Positions 40,072 to 48,747 of a DNA stretch of 64,000 nt are shown here, in pieces (position 1 is the first letter of the stretch; every line of letters starts with the position of its first letter). A model generated the notes under the pieces. That model worked only from the letters and a program-made list of their open reading frames with translations. It was not told where the DNA came from and ran no database searches. Position numbers and translations under genes: made by a program. Source of the stretch: Porticoccaceae bacterium. GTDB lineage: Bacteria; Pseudomonadota; Gammaproteobacteria; Pseudomonadales; Porticoccaceae. The DNA lies in assembly GCA_024639885.1 (NCBI GenBank), contig JAHEGD010000005.1, positions 1 to 64,000 of the forward strand. The letters are read 5' to 3'.

Positions 40072-40128
40072 GAAAACCTCTGGGCTAGCGGGCGGTTTGT
40101 ACAGCGGGCTGCTGATAGCGGGCGGCAT

Positions 40129-40725
40129 TATACGCCAAACTGGCTACTATTTGACCAGCCATTGTGAGATCGCTTAATGGCGGTGTTCGAGCGGTTGTGA
40201 TTAATAAGTTAACCTAATGTTTAGTGAAAAAGAGTGGGTGAGTTATAGTCTTATTGTTATTAGCAACCCATCAGGGCTGGGATAGATTTTTTTTATCTAG
40301 CTATTACATAGGTTTAGATTGATTTTTGGGCGGTATAAAACGGCCGCTCTGCTGGGTGTTAATCGCTGCCAAGGTGTGTACGGCCAGTATAACTTTTCGG
40401 CTAGGCGCGGCCATTTGGCCGCTATGGATGAATGCGGTGGATAAATAGTTCTGTTGCGCGCAGGTTATACACAGCTTGTTATGGCGCCCGTCCATTTGTG
40501 GATAAAGCTGTGGGTGAGTGTGGGTAAGTTGCTGTGTATGGTGGCTGCTAGCATCGCGGCGGCGCGGCTTGCGGGGGAATGGCGCCTCTCTGTTGGTGGT
40601 TGACTACAGCAGAGACGGGTTGATAAATTGCCTTGCGTTTGTGCGCCAGCACCATTAGAATCGCCCGCCCTCGGCCCCATTCGGCCGGAAAAATTCAATT
40701 TCAGTGTTTTTGACGGACAGTTATC
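40129..40725. other. candidate oriC: strand-switch intergenic region with AT-rich tract and clustered DnaA boxes
   Basis: Divergent mnmG/rpmH; AT-rich 40200-40340; DnaA-box-like 9-mers at 40436-40444 (GGTGGATAA), 40465-40473 (TTATACACA), 40497-40505 (TGTGGATAA, perfect), 40509-40517 (TGTGGGTGA), 40519-40527 (TGTGGGTAA). Confidence 0.75.
40407..40422. repeat. inverted repeat in candidate oriC
   Basis: GCGGCCA-tt-TGGCCGC, 7-bp perfect arms, ~15 bp before the DnaA-box cluster. Confidence 0.8.
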
Positions 40726-40860
40726 ATGAAAAGAACGTTTCAGCCCAGTGTTATCAAGCGCAAGCGCACCCACGGTTTTCGCGCTCGTATGGCGACTAAA
40801 AATGGCCGCGCAGTGCTGTCGCGCCGTCGCGCCAAAGGCCGCAAGCGCCTGGCCGCATAA
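40726..40860 (+). CDS. rpmH: 50S ribosomal protein L34
   Basis: [44 protein letters not shown] (44 aa, below the ORF-track length cutoff). Confidence 0.99.
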
Positions 40861-40908
40861 GTTAGTCCCTGTTGGGCGCGCCGGTACAGTGTGTGCTGGT
40901 GGCTGGTT

Positions 40909-41274
40909 TTGAGCCAGAGCTTTAGCCGCGCGCAGCGGCTGTTGACCCCAAAAGACTTTAAGGCAGTGTTTGACCGCAACGAATCTCGTGCGGGCAACGC
41001 TGCCTTTTTGTTGTTGGCGCTACCCAATGGCGGCTCGTACTCACGGCTCGGTTTGGTCGTCGGCAAAAAAGCCCTTAAACGCGCAGTTGATCGCAACCGA
41101 GTGAAGCGTTTGGTTCGCGAGAGCTTTCGTCACACTGCGTTTTTCCAGCCGGTCGATATTGTCTTTCTTGCCCGCGCTGGGGTAGGTCCAGCGCTCGCTG
41201 GCGATTTCGGGGGCCAGTTGGCAGCTGAGTGGGCGCGCCTCAACCGTCGCTTGGCAGCGCCCCAAGGCCAATGA
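40909..41274 (+). CDS. rnpA: ribonuclease P protein component
   Basis: FSRAQRLLTPKDFKAVF...GLVVGKKALKRAVDRNRVKRLVRESFR; start uncertain (GTG 40891 or TTG 40909). Confidence 0.95.
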   Translation: MSQSFSRAQRLLTPKDFKAVFDRNESRAGNAAFLLLALPNGGSYSRLGLVVGKKALKRAVDRNRVKRLVRESFRHTAFFQPVDIVFLARAGVGPALAGDFGGQLAAEWARLNRRLAAPQGQ

Positions 41275-41591
41275 ACACCCCGCAGCAAGCCGCAAAGTGG
41301 CTGTTATTAAAGTTGCTGCGCGGTTATCAGGTGGCGATCAGCCCGTGGTTGGGTAGCAACTGTCGATTTCACCCGACCTGCTCGCAATACGCGGTCGAGG
41401 CAGTGGAGTTGCACGGCGTGGTCAAAGGGGGTTACCTTAGCTTGCGTAGAATTATAAAATGCCATCCGTTCCACCGCGGTGGCGTTGACCTTGTCCCGGG
41501 CCGGCCATCTTCAATCGAGCAGTGTCGCGATAGCAACCCTTCAGCCGCGTCTGATCATGCGGAATCTCACCAGAATAAAGAGTCTCAATAA
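41271..41591 (+). CDS. yidD: membrane protein insertion efficiency factor YidD
   Basis: LLKLLRGYQVAISPWLGSNCRFHPTCSQYAVEAVELHG; start at MNTPQQAAKW. Confidence 0.96.
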   Translation: MNTPQQAAKWLLLKLLRGYQVAISPWLGSNCRFHPTCSQYAVEAVELHGVVKGGYLSLRRIIKCHPFHRGGVDLVPGRPSSIEQCRDSNPSAASDHAESHQNKESQ

Positions 41592-43264
41592 TGGATTGGC
41601 AAAGAAACGGTTTACTCGCGGGTAGTTTGGTAGTGGCGCTGCTGCTGTTTAATCAGTGGATGAGCTTTACCGAGGCGCGCAAGCCGGCGGTGGTGGCAGA
41701 GCAGCTGTTGGTGCCGGGGCAGGGCGACAGCTCGGCTCAGTTCGACGGACGAGTAGAGAGCGGTGTTGGTGCCGCCAGTGATCTACCGGTGGCGCGCGAT
41801 CTTCCTGAAGCGATCGACACCAGCGCGGCGATTAGTTCGAGCCGTTTGGTTACCGTTGAGAGCTCGCAGTTCAGTGTGGTGATTGATAGCCATGGCGGCG
41901 ACATTGTCCAGGTTAAACTCAAGCAGCACCTCGACGCACCGGCCGCCAAGGGAGGACAACCGTTTACCCTGCTGACGCGCACTCAAAATAATACCTACGT
42001 CGCTAAGAGCGGGCTGGTCGGGATTAACGCTACCGATACCCGCGACGGACGTCCGCAGTTCGTGGTTGGGCGCGACAGTGTCGATGTGACCACCGGTGTA
42101 GAGCAGCTCGACCTGGTAACACGCAGCAACGGTGTGCTGATCACCAAGCGGTTTACTTTCACTCCGGGCAGCTATCAGATCGGCGTTGAGTATCTTATTC
42201 ACAACCCGACCGCGAGCCAGTGGAGCGCGGTTTTTTACGGTCAGATCAACCGCGACTCACACAAGCCGTTGGTCAACGCGACGGGCGTGCAGCCCTACCT
42301 GGGGGGTGCGCTGCGCACCGCCGAGAAAAATTACCGCAAGGTCACCTTCGGCGACATGCAGGACGGCAAGCTTGAAGAGAGCATTAGCGGCGGTTGGGTG
42401 GCGATGTTGCAGCACTATTTTATTGGTGCCTGGATCCCCGATCAAAATGCGACCAACCACTTTTCTCTGCGTAAAATTAACGGCCAAGACCTTTACGTGA
42501 TGGGCTACACCAGTGACCCTATTGTGGTTCCTGCCGGCCAGATCGGCAGCTATCAGACCTCGTTTTACGCGGGGCCGAAGGATCAGGAGGTGCTGGCCGG
42601 GCTGGCTGAGCACCTCGATTTAACCATCGACTACGGGTTTCTCTGGCTGCTCGCCAAACCGATTTTCACTTTGATGCAGTGGATCCACAATGTGGTCGGC
42701 AACTGGGGTTGGTCGATCATCCTGTTGACCGTGGTAATCAAGTTGACGCTCTACCCACTGTCGGCAGCGAGCCTGCGGTCGATGGCGAAGATGCGCAAGT
42801 TGCAGCCTGAAATGGCTCGTCTCAAGGATCTTTACGGTGACGATCGCCAGAAGATGTCTGGCGAACTGATGGGCCTTTACAAGAAGCACAAAGTCAACCC
42901 GGCCGGTGGCTGCCTGCCGGTGCTGCTACAGATGCCGGTCTTTATCGCTCTCTACTGGGTGCTGCTGGAGAGTGTCGAGATTCGCCACTCGTCGTTTATC
43001 TTCTGGCTTACTGATCTGAGTGCCAAAGATCCCTATTTTGTACTGCCGCTGATTATGGGTGCCAGCATGTATTTTATGCAGCGCTTGCAGCCGATGCCAC
43101 CCGATCCGATGCAGGCCAAGATCATGAAGATCATGCCGGTCGCCTTCACCTTCTTCTTTATGCTGTTCCCGGCCGGCCTGGTACTCTACTGGACCACTAA
43201 CAACCTGCTGTCGATGGCCCAGCAAATTATTGTTAACCGCCAGATAGAGGCCGGCAAAGGCTGA
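41591..43264 (+). CDS. yidC: membrane protein insertase YidC
   Basis: [24 protein letters not shown]-terminal 60KD_IMP domain [41 protein letters not shown]. Confidence 0.98.
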
Positions 43265-43268
43265 GTCT

Positions 43269-44645
43269 GTGGTAGCTAACCAGCGCGACACCATCGCCGC
43301 CATCGCCACCGCACCGGGGCGCGGTGGGGTCGGTATCGTCAGGCTCTCCGGCCCACAGGCGCGGCCGCTCGGCGAAGCGCTGTGCGGCCGGCAGTTGACC
43401 CCACGGCACGCCCACTACTGTGACTTTTGCGCCGGCGACGGCGAGCTGCTCGACCAGGGCATCGCGATCTATTTCGCCCAGCCCCACTCCTTTACCGGGG
43501 AAGAGGTGGTCGAGCTGCAAGGGCACGGCGGGCCGGTCATTCTCGACCAGCTGCTCGCCGAGCTGCTCAAGGCCGGCGCTCGCCAGGCTCGCCCGGGCGA
43601 GTTCAGCGAACGCGCCTTTCTCAACGACAAGTTGGACCTCACCCAAGCCGAGGCGATCGCCGACTTGATCGACGCCAGCAGCCAGGCCGCAACACGCTCG
43701 GCGCTGCGCTCACTGCAGGGCGCTTTTTCTGCCGCTGTTGAGCAGTTGCTGGTCCAGATGACCCGGCTTCGAGTATTCGTTGAGGCGTCTATCGACTTTC
43801 CCGAAGAGGAGATCGATTTTCTTGCCGACAGTGCACTGCACAGCCAGCTACAGGCATTGATCGCGGCGCTGCAAAGCACGCTGGCCGGCGCCCGCGAGGG
43901 GGCGCTGCTGCGCGACGGCATTAAGGTGGTGCTAGCCGGTCGACCGAACGCCGGTAAGTCGAGTCTACTCAACCAACTGGCCGGCCGCGACAGCGCGATT
44001 GTTACCGAGCAGGCCGGCACCACCCGCGACCTGCTTAAAGAGCAGCTGGTACTGGACGGGCTGCCGGTCGAGATTGTCGACACCGCCGGCCTGCGCGATA
44101 GCGACGATCTGGTTGAGCGAGAGGGTATCCGGCGGGCGCGCGCCGAGATCGCTCAAGCCGACCTCTGCCTGCTGTTAGTCGATGACCCAGAGTGCCACCA
44201 GAGCGGTGCAGCCCCCAATCTGGCGGCGCTGCTGACCGACCTGCTCGGCGATAGCGCGCTGCTCGATCGCACCGTGGTCGCGCTCAATAAAGCCGATCTC
44301 TACGGCGGTGCGGTGGGCCAGCTCGAGGCTGACTACCCGCTGTTTGCGCTCTCGGCCGCGACCGGCAGTGGGGTGCCGGCACTGGTTGCCCATATTCAAA
44401 AGGCAGCCGGTTACCGGGCCACTGAGAGCGGCGGCTACTCGGCGCGCCGGCGCCACATCGATGCTCTCGAGCGGGCGCTGGCACTGGTGAGCGACGGTTA
44501 CCGCCACCTACAAGCGACCGCTGCCGGCGAACTGCTCGCCGAAGACCTGCGTATCGCCCAGCAGGCGCTCGGCGAAATCACTGGACAGGTCAGTAGCGAT
44601 CAGCTGCTCGGGGAGATATTCTCCTCTTTTTGTATCGGCAAATAG
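43269..44645 (+). CDS. mnmE: tRNA modification GTPase MnmE
   Basis: [58 protein letters not shown]-terminal FCIGK. Confidence 0.98.
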
Positions 44646-44675
44646 CCCGTTATTAGTAACTGATAAGAATTATCC

Positions 44676-44697
44676 GACCAGACCGACTGGTCTGGTC
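44676..44697 (+). terminator. hairpin after mnmE (terminator-like)
   Basis: GACCAGACC-gact-GGTCTGGTC: 9-bp perfect stem, 4-nt loop, ~30 nt after the mnmE stop; no strong T-tract. Confidence 0.55.
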
Positions 44698-44795
44698 ACT
44701 CTATCGCTGAATGGCGGCCCATTGTCGCGTTAGCTGGCTCGCAAAGTGGCCTAATTGTCATTCTCCACCACTTCTCTACACACTTAGAAACAGAG

Positions 44796-44938
44796 TTATA
44801 CACAGGATAGTATAATAAATAACCAGTAAAAACCGACTTGCTTGTGGGTAAGTTTTCTGCTTACTGTTTTTAACTTGTTGTTTTAGTTGGTTTTGTTTTT
44901 ACCTCTTGCTTTATGTCGGTTTCTATTGGTGTGGATAA
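44796..44938. promoter_or_regulatory. DnaA-box cluster upstream of dnaA
   Basis: TTATACACA 44796-44804, TGTGGGTAA 44843-44851, perfect TGTGGATAA 44930-44938, in an AT-rich intergenic region. Confidence 0.75.
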
Positions 44939-45039
44939 CTGGTCGCGTTGAGGTTAGAATCCCTCTTCATTTTTCGGCCCCAATAGCGCATTGGCCGGTG
45001 GGCTGGTGAAGATAATAAAAATAGGTGAGCGAGGGATTC

Positions 45040-46476
45040 GTGTCCGACCCAATTTGGCATCAATGTCAGCAGCGGCTGCAGCTCGAGCTGCCGGCGCAGC
45101 AGTACACCACCTGGATTAAACCGCTGGCCGCGGAGTTGCTTGGCGACGCCGCTATGCTGCAGCTGCGCGCGCCCAACCGGTTTATTCAAGAGTGGGTCAA
45201 CAGCAAGTACCGGTCGCGGATCAAAGAGCTGGTCAGCGATCTCGGCTACCCGCAGACCCAGGTCGAGGTGGCGGCGGGGGCGCCAGCCCAGCCGTTGGAG
45301 AGCAATCGACCGGCCGAGCCCGTTGTGGCGCCGTTGATCGCTGCGCAGGCGCTCGCTCCGGCGCAGCCCGAGACTATCGTTCAGCAAGCTAGCAGCCCAT
45401 TAATTATCGCCAACTCAGCGCCGGCGGTGCACACTTCCGCGGCCGAGCGCAGTATGCGCAGCAATCTGATGGAGAACTACACGTTCGACACGTTTGTTGA
45501 GGGTAAGTCTAATCAGCTGGCTTTCGCCGCCGCTCAACAGGTCGCCGAGAACCCGGGTGGCTCCTACAACCCGCTATTTATTTACGGCGGTGTCGGCCTG
45601 GGTAAAACCCACCTGATGCACGCGGTTGGCAACGCGCTGCGCGCCCGCAAACCGGACGCCAAAATTGTCTACCTGCACTCCGAGCGGTTTGTCGCCGACA
45701 TGGTCAAGGCGTTGCAGCTCAAGGCGATCGACGAGTTTAAGCGCTTCTACCGGTCAGTCGATGCGCTGTTGATCGATGATATTCAGTTTTTCGCCGGCAA
45801 AGACCGCTCGCAGGAGGAGTTTTTCCACACCTACAATGCGCTGCTTGAGGGCGGCCAGCAGATGATTCTTACCAGCGACCGCTACCCAAAAGAGATTGAC
45901 GGCGTTGAAGAGCGGCTTAAATCTCGGTTTGGCTGGGGATTGACGGTCGCGGTTGAGCCGCCCGAACTGGAGACCCGGGTGGCGATCTTAATGAACAAGG
46001 CCGAGCAGAGCGGTATGGTGCTGTCGCGCGATGCGGCGTTTTTTATCGCCCAGCGAATCCGCTCCAATGTTCGCGAGCTGGAGGGGGCGCTCAAGCGGGT
46101 GATGGCCCATGCGCAGTTCACCCGCCGCGCTATCGATATCGACCTTATTCGCGAGTCGTTAAAAGACTTGTTGGCACTCCAAGACAAGCTGGTTACCATA
46201 GACAACATCCAGAAAGTGGTGGCGGACTACTATCAGATGAAGCTGTCTGATCTGCTCTCCAAGCGGCGTACCCGCTCGGTGGCGCGGCCGCGCCAGGTGG
46301 CGATGGCGCTGGCTAAAGAGCTCACCTCGCACAGCCTGCCGGAGATCGGCGACGCCTTTGGTGGCCGCGATCACACCACCGTGCTGCACGCGTGCCGCAA
46401 GATTAAAGAGCTGGAAGGGGCTGATCGCGAGGTTGAGCGAGACTTGAAAAACCTCTACCGAACACTGTCGACATAA
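45040..46476 (+). CDS. dnaA: chromosomal replication initiator DnaA
   Basis: [22 protein letters not shown]...[14 protein letters not shown]...[22 protein letters not shown] start at 45040 preferred to 45025. Confidence 0.98.
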
Positions 46477-47640: not shown

Positions 47641-48747
47641 TTGCAGCTCCTACGGCTCGATCTGCTGGCGGTTCGCAACCTCAGCGAGGCGCGTATCGAC
47701 TGCCACCCGCGCGCCAACATTTTCTACGGCCAAAATGGCAGCGGCAAGACCAGCCTCCTCGAGGGGCTGGCGCTGCTCAGCCGCGGCCGCTCTTTCCGGC
47801 AGCGCGATGCGCGCAGCATTATCAACCACCAGGCAGAGAGTCTGGTTGTTTCGGCGCGCTGCCAGCAGAGCGGTAATGGCAACCAGCCGGTGCCGTTTAC
47901 GGTGGGGATCAGCCGCAGCCGGGCAGGGCAGCCGCAGGCGCGCCATAACGGAGCGTTGGTCGCCAGCGCTATGGAGCTCTCTGCGCTACTGCCACTGCAG
48001 GTAATTGAGCCGCAGAGCTTCCAGCTGCTTGAGGGTGGGCCGCTGCAGCGCCGTCAATTTATAGACTGGGGTGTGTTCCACGTGGAACAGCGCTATCGAG
48101 GCCACTGGCTGGCCTATCAGCGCGGCTTAAAACAGCGCAATGAGCTGCTCCGTCGTGGTAGAATAAGCGACGATTTAATCGCGCCGTGGAGTGCCCTGCT
48201 GGCAGAGCATGGCTCGGCGATTGGCGGTTATCGAGCCGACTATTTGGCAGCATTGACGCCGTTTGTCGACCAGCAGCTGAAGCGCTTTGGCGCGCTCGGT
48301 AACGTGGTGTTGATCTACCAACCGGGCTGGTCGGGCGAGCACGGCTCGCTGGCAGAGGCGCTGGCGGCCGGATTGGAGCGCGAAAAGCGCCGCGGCGTGA
48401 CCCTGAGTGGGCCGCACCGCGCCGAGCTCAAGGTCGCTATAGATGGCCGGCCGGCGGCAGAGGTAATGTCGCGCGGTGAGTTAAAGCTGCTGGTCTACGC
48501 GTTAAAGCTGGGCCAGGCAGAGCTGTTTGCGGCCCGTTGCGGTGAGCCGTGCGTGCTGGCGATCGACGATCTGCCGGCCGAGTTGGACTACCGCCATCGC
48601 GGTCAGGTGTTGGCTGCGATAGCTGGGCTGGGCGGGCAGAGTTTTATTACCGGGGTGGATTGGGCCGATTTTGCCCCGTTTACGGCAGAGATTGGAGCAG
48701 CGACCCTGTTCCACGTGGAACAAGGTGCGATACGAGCGGCCGATTAG
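47641..48747 (+). CDS. recF: DNA replication/repair protein RecF
   Basis: LLRLDLLAVRNLSEARID...NIFYGQNGSGKTSLLEGLALLSRGRSFR; TTG start. Confidence 0.97.
   Translation: MQLLRLDLLAVRNLSEARIDCHPRANIFYGQNGSGKTSLLEGLALLSRGRSFRQRDARSIINHQAESLVVSARCQQSGNGNQPVPFTVGISRSRAGQPQARHNGALVASAMELSALLPLQVIEPQSFQLLEGGPLQRRQFIDWGVFHVEQRYRGHWLAYQRGLKQRNELLRRGRISDDLIAPWSALLAEHGSAIGGYRADYLAALTPFVDQQLKRFGALGNVVLIYQPGWSGEHGSLAEALAAGLEREKRRGVTLSGPHRAELKVAIDGRPAAEVMSRGELKLLVYALKLGQAELFAARCGEPCVLAIDDLPAELDYRHRGQVLAAIAGLGGQSFITGVDWADFAPFTAEIGAATLFHVEQGAIRAAD
48074..48089. promoter_or_regulatory. parS centromere site (1)
   Basis: TGTTCCACGTGGAACA, perfect 16-bp palindrome matching the known ParB site family; inside recF; parA/parB present in the window. 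Confidence 0.92.
48707..48722. promoter_or_regulatory. parS centromere site (2)
   Basis: TGTTCCACGTGGAACA, identical 16-bp palindrome at the 3' end of recF, 633 bp from site 1. Confidence 0.92.

Follow-up and report, generated by a model that had tools for sequence, protein, structure and literature searches.

An ancient gene-block inversion beside a probably intact, mnmG-linked oriC in the Porticoccaceae

A replication origin beside mnmG (= gidA) is not without precedent, as the oriC of Escherichia coli and Vibrio adjoins this gene, turns its unwinding side toward it, carries a TTATTAG-N13-R1-like box, and has mioC or mnmE as its neighbor on the box side. The oriC of E. coli is also GATC-rich. 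In Pseudomonas the origin reportedly lies between rpmH and dnaA, as Yee and Smith are said to have described in 1990, and the core found between these two genes has its unwinding side toward rpmH. Bipartite origins, such as those of Bacillus subtilis and Helicobacter pylori, have two DnaA box clusters near dnaA, and the known examples extend over at most about 2 kb, with a spacer gene, usually dnaA, in between (PMC4285127). DnaA boxes have also been implicated in the control of dnaA itself; autoregulation through such boxes is established in several bacteria, but was not seen in Pseudomonas putida, and the dnaA promoter regions of E. coli and Vibrio harveyi contain a DnaA box, which in E. coli lies between two promoters (PMC8203912).

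The locus compared here with these systems comes from a Porticoccaceae bacterium, and the window analyzed is a stretch of 64,000 nucleotides, the initial 64 kb of contig 38 in a 2.2 Mb genome of 39 contigs. Direct reading and tblastn, with gene names taken from tblastn across relatives and from known synteny, place parB, parA, rsmG, and mnmG on the minus strand, followed on the plus strand by a block of rpmH, rnpA, yidD, yidC, and mnmE (40726-44645, rpmH starting at 40726) and by dnaA (45040-46476), dnaN, recF, and gyrB. Relative to the arrangement in Pseudomonas and Vibrio, the block is inverted and reads toward dnaA, just as a sequence-only reading of this DNA had described. Because the initial 19 codons of the longest mnmG reading frame (from 40128) run over a conserved stretch resembling a promoter, 40071 is the more probable start of mnmG, and the gap between mnmG and rpmH would then run from about 40072 to 40725. 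The 19-codon extension enters what is likely the mnmG promoter (TGGTCA ... TATAAT read on the minus strand, 40128-40165), which corresponds to conserved 'cATTATAcg...TTTaACCA' columns of the family alignment. Other predicted signals are an rpmH promoter on the plus strand (TTGCGT-17-TAGAAT, 40633-40661; conserved columns TTG...TTARAATC in the family alignment) and an mnmE terminator palindrome, TGACCAGACC-AGTC-GGTCTGGTCG read on the minus strand (44675-44698), a TGAC...GTCA hairpin that most family members share at this position. An Rfam search of 38-47 kb gave no match. Inside recF are two perfect parS palindromes, both TGTTCCACGTGGAACA (48074-48089 and 48707-48722), lying about 8 kb to the right of the oriC proposed below; nowhere else does the 2.2 Mb assembly match TGTTYCACGTGRAACA.

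A key result of the comparison across genomes is that the inverted order belongs to the whole family. Both dnaA and mnmE are present in 102 of the 112 family genomes, two of these carry the genes on different contigs, and in all of the remaining 100 dnaA and mnmE stand in tandem on one strand, as in the window (lists of dnaA and mnmE positions compared by eye). The surroundings of mnmE are likewise inverted in all genomes of the family whose flank is readable. Outside the family, the standard order gyrB-recF-dnaN-dnaA, rpmH...mnmE, mnmG was found in 10/10 readable genomes from other families of the order, and among 80 named gammaproteobacterial loci 76 are standard, three are unreadable, and the sole inverted one is from Porticoccus sp. 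W117. In a tree of five concatenated proteins, all inverted genomes form one clade (support 1.0), whose sister, comprising locus L072 and Microbulbifer, has the standard order. On this comparative evidence, the arrangement is the product of one ancient inversion in the common ancestor of the family, since fixed family-wide, because the order is shared throughout and the inverted genomes form a single clade. A recent local inversion or an assembly error was rejected, as the inverted order is fixed in the family. The suspected inversion is, therefore, real, and the comparison with related genomes that the sequence-only reading had proposed shows it to be old; that the inverted order is ancestral in the whole clade is also a result that this reading had itself named as speaking against a relocated or split oriC. 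One family genome, listed at 5% contamination, carries on contig C81 a second mnmE/dnaA pair in standard order, which is probably foreign. We found no report of the arrangement in the open papers searched, which is not proof of absence; what remains novel is that a variant gene order has become fixed at a canonical origin.

DnaA boxes occur at both ends of the block. On the mnmG side, a cluster at 40436-40527 comprises TTATCCACC (40436, minus), TTATACACA (40465, plus), the perfect box TTATCCACA (40497, minus), and TTACCCACA (40519, minus), and in the gap between mnmE and dnaA lie box1, TTATACACA (44796, plus), box2, TTACCCACA (44843, minus), and box3, again the perfect TTATCCACA (44930, minus). 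The four copies of TTATNCACA in these two gaps (about 1 kb) are not a matter of chance, because the window holds five copies against 0.44 expected, a number reached in 0/100 shuffles, and there are only 25 in the 2.2 Mb genome. The box clusters reported earlier at both ends are, therefore, far above chance, and a chance origin was rejected. The number of boxes alone fails to distinguish one gap from the other.

What sets the mnmG-rpmH gap apart is its layout. In an alignment of this gap from 23 family members, an AT-rich tract beside mnmG is followed by a TTGTTATTATTATTAG-like stretch, 13 bp, a TGTGGATAA-like box, more DnaA boxes, and the rpmH promoter. In the window, the candidate DNA unwinding element is a tract at 40190-40300 (62-70% AT in a neighborhood of 57-63% GC), AT-rich at the same place across the family alignment. 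It contains a DnaA-trio-like stretch, TTATTGTTATTAG (40251-40263, plus), which aligns to the family TTGTTATTATTATTAG and is placed like the stretch that precedes R1 in E. coli, and 13 bp beyond this is a degenerate R1-like box, CTGGGATAG (40277-40285, minus), which is TGTGGATAA-like at the same spacing in most relatives. An unwinding system with a matching trio-plus-box layout has been described, for which E. coli scores weakly (PMC8287927). When the core was scored as a fixed pattern (maximum 25, threshold 18), it was found in plus orientation in 22/24 family mnmG-rpmH gaps, 13 of which score at least 18; random 600-mers reached 18 in 3/300, and the window's own core, with its degenerate R1-like site, scores only 18. 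Both the alignment and the pattern score show the unwinding side facing mnmG. In standard-order genomes the best core match beside mnmG has the matching orientation in 49/50, and the family core profile matches the E. coli origin at 447-512, on the mnmG-facing side of the annotated oriC (445-676). We, therefore, regard it as very probable, judging from sequence comparison, that the gap holds a complete oriC of the E. coli/Vibrio type at about 40.1-40.55 kb, and that the inversion breakpoints cut neither this oriC nor the module upstream of dnaA. The family oriC would share with its E. coli and Vibrio counterparts the adjacent mnmG, the polarity, and the TTATTAG-N13-R1-like arrangement, but unlike them has rpmH as its box-side neighbor and, unlike the E. 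coli oriC, has one GATC site in the gap. The core also makes 40.1-40.7 kb, where initiation had been suggested, the most likely site.

The boxes upstream of dnaA appear to belong to a predicted promoter module (44796-44960, plus), recognized by family conservation, in which box1 and box3 are separated by 133-140 bp in 23/24 genomes and a -10 hexamer resembling TAGAcT/TAGAAT comes exactly 16 bp after the TGTGGATAA box3, also in 23/24 genomes (TAGAAT at 44955-44960 in the window). Because of this fixed distance, box3 would lie over the -35 element of a promoter reading into dnaA. The module profile also matches the sequence upstream of dnaA in two standard-order genomes (E 7e-6 and 2e-5), in the dnaA orientation, and thus the module belongs to dnaA and predates the inversion. 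The second cluster is best read as an autoregulated dnaA promoter, with DnaA probably repressing dnaA through the boxes at 44796-44938. This resembles the E. coli and V. harveyi promoters in having a DnaA box within the promoter region, but differs from E. coli in the overlap with -35 at fixed spacing. The sequence-only reading had offered as its alternative that the oriC at mnmG/rpmH is complete and that the boxes at dnaA are autoregulatory, and it is this alternative with which core and promoter geometry agree. By the same comparisons, the oriC module and the dnaA promoter module are both older than the inversion, which left them intact.

Strand skew bears on the position of the origin and on the direction in which the block is replicated. 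In sampled stretches of two closed family genomes, G021 and G024, the skew changes sign within the roughly 20 kb locus, and the opposite change lies about half a chromosome away. This bears on the skew check that had been proposed with the original observation and places the origin at the locus; alone, it does not choose between the two gaps. The third-codon-position skew of yidC and mnmE, minus that of neighboring genes that both hypotheses place on the leading strand, is +0.044 +- 0.012 in the family (n=25 genomes, 21 positive) and -0.224 +- 0.046 in other families (n=10 genomes, 0 positive), a difference with a Mann-Whitney P=1e-5 among genomes that are not independent, shared ancestry being uncorrected. 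When the block genes were concatenated, a classifier trained on sampled genes assigned them to the leading strand in five family genomes (probability 0.67-0.92). In the window's own genome the skew is weak, with a balanced accuracy of 0.64 for the classifier and a P(leading) of 0.74 for the block, and the three block genes of G021 disagree with one another (combined log10 odds -0.13). A raw GC3 comparison, which has to be calibrated, gave about +0.03 to -0.12 for Pseudomonas and Marinobacter and mostly -0.16 to -0.29 for Vibrio and Photobacterium. Because negative values (to -0.30) also occur in Halomonas-type genomes, in which mnmG is not close by, and because the genomes are not independent, we treat skew as supporting rather than decisive evidence. 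It fits an origin on the mnmG side in family and relatives alike; the block would then be co-directional in the family, as the sequence-only reading had it for initiation at 40.1-40.7 kb, and head-on in the relatives. Since the block skew is of the leading-strand type in the family and lagging-like in relatives, the block was probably head-on before the flip and co-directional after it.

Of the other readings of the two clusters, a bipartite origin, in which the mnmG-side oriC is helped by the dnaA-side array as in B. subtilis or H. pylori, fares best. Boxes are conserved in both regions across the family, such origins are known (PMC4285127), and the dnaA-side module is conserved as well as oriC is, which a plain promoter need not be and which counts against our preferred reading. 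Here, however, 4.3 kb and five genes other than dnaA separate the clusters, the second of which is a promoter, and the dnaA side needs nothing beyond the promoter reading, so that we consider a bipartite origin very unlikely. It is tempting to speculate that, since the inversion, the three-box array, which shares a replichore with the mnmG-side oriC and lies 4.3 kb from it, cooperates with this oriC or titrates DnaA for it, giving bipartite initiation in the Porticoccaceae; going by sequence, we find this distinctly unlikely. Very improbable is an origin in the mnmE-dnaA gap itself, with the three-box region as the real oriC and the block head-on: the conserved distance between box1 and box3 and the AT-rich sequence between them would suit it, but the core reaches 18 in 1/25 genomes in this gap against the 13/24 on the mnmG side, box3 sits on the -35 of a conserved promoter, and the block shows leading-strand skew.

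The weakest reading is the one that headed the sequence-only account, in which the inversion cut an ancestral rpmH-dnaA origin whose halves, 4.3 kb apart, act together or separately: it draws on the similar composition of the two box clusters and on the oriC-like core between dnaA and rpmH in Pseudomonas and Marinobacter, but it is hardly credible, as both modules keep the same partner gene and polarity in relatives without the inversion and the dnaA-side boxes sit on a promoter. A split or relocated oriC was, therefore, rejected in favor of an intact mnmG-linked oriC and an intact dnaA promoter module. Because a core linked to rpmH and carried along with it would unwind toward rpmH, whereas the family core faces mnmG, the origin would have stayed with mnmG while the block flipped beside it. 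The locus does share its surrounding genes and DnaA box consensus with the Pseudomonas origin; in the family, however, rpmH and dnaA are not adjacent and the mnmE-dnaA gap lacks such a core upstream of dnaA.

Some Marinobacter and Pseudomonas loci merit mention in their own right. In five Marinobacter loci, the strongest core (20-22 of 25) lies between dnaA and rpmH with its unwinding side toward rpmH, and mnmG is at least 7 kb from mnmE or out of range. The Pseudomonas core between dnaA and rpmH is less clear than that of Marinobacter, and seven Pseudomonas loci have oriC-like cores in both the dnaA-rpmH and mnmE-mnmG gaps, in the same orientation, a finding of possible relevance to the pair of replicating elements that P. 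aeruginosa has been reported to have.

Our preferred explanation builds on what the analysis shows of the gene order and its fixation across the family, the motif and polarity of the core, the geometry of the promoter, and the skew. In the ancestor, the block would have stood between the mnmG-linked oriC and dnaA, reading toward oriC, and would have inverted once, with one breakpoint between mnmE and oriC and the other separating rpmH from the dnaA promoter module, so that neither module was cut. From these observations we infer initiation, melting, repression, and the head-on ancestral state. DnaA would bind the R1-like site as well as the box cluster at 40436-40527 and melt the AT-rich tract on the mnmG side via the trio stretch, from which forks would leave both ways; the block would now be transcribed with the right-hand fork, formerly against it. 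At the dnaA promoter, DnaA would bind the boxes at 44796-44938, with box3 over -35, and probably repress dnaA.

This reading predicts the location of oriC in a marine family for which dnaA may serve as the cut point of closed genomes, as in G021, which is numbered from dnaA; the likely start lies more than 4 kb from that gene. In addition, the family is a natural experiment, in which a block that adjoins the origin and contains essential genes was apparently head-on until a single ancient inversion made it co-directional, and in which the third-position skew of the block genes is leading-like where that of relatives is lagging-like.
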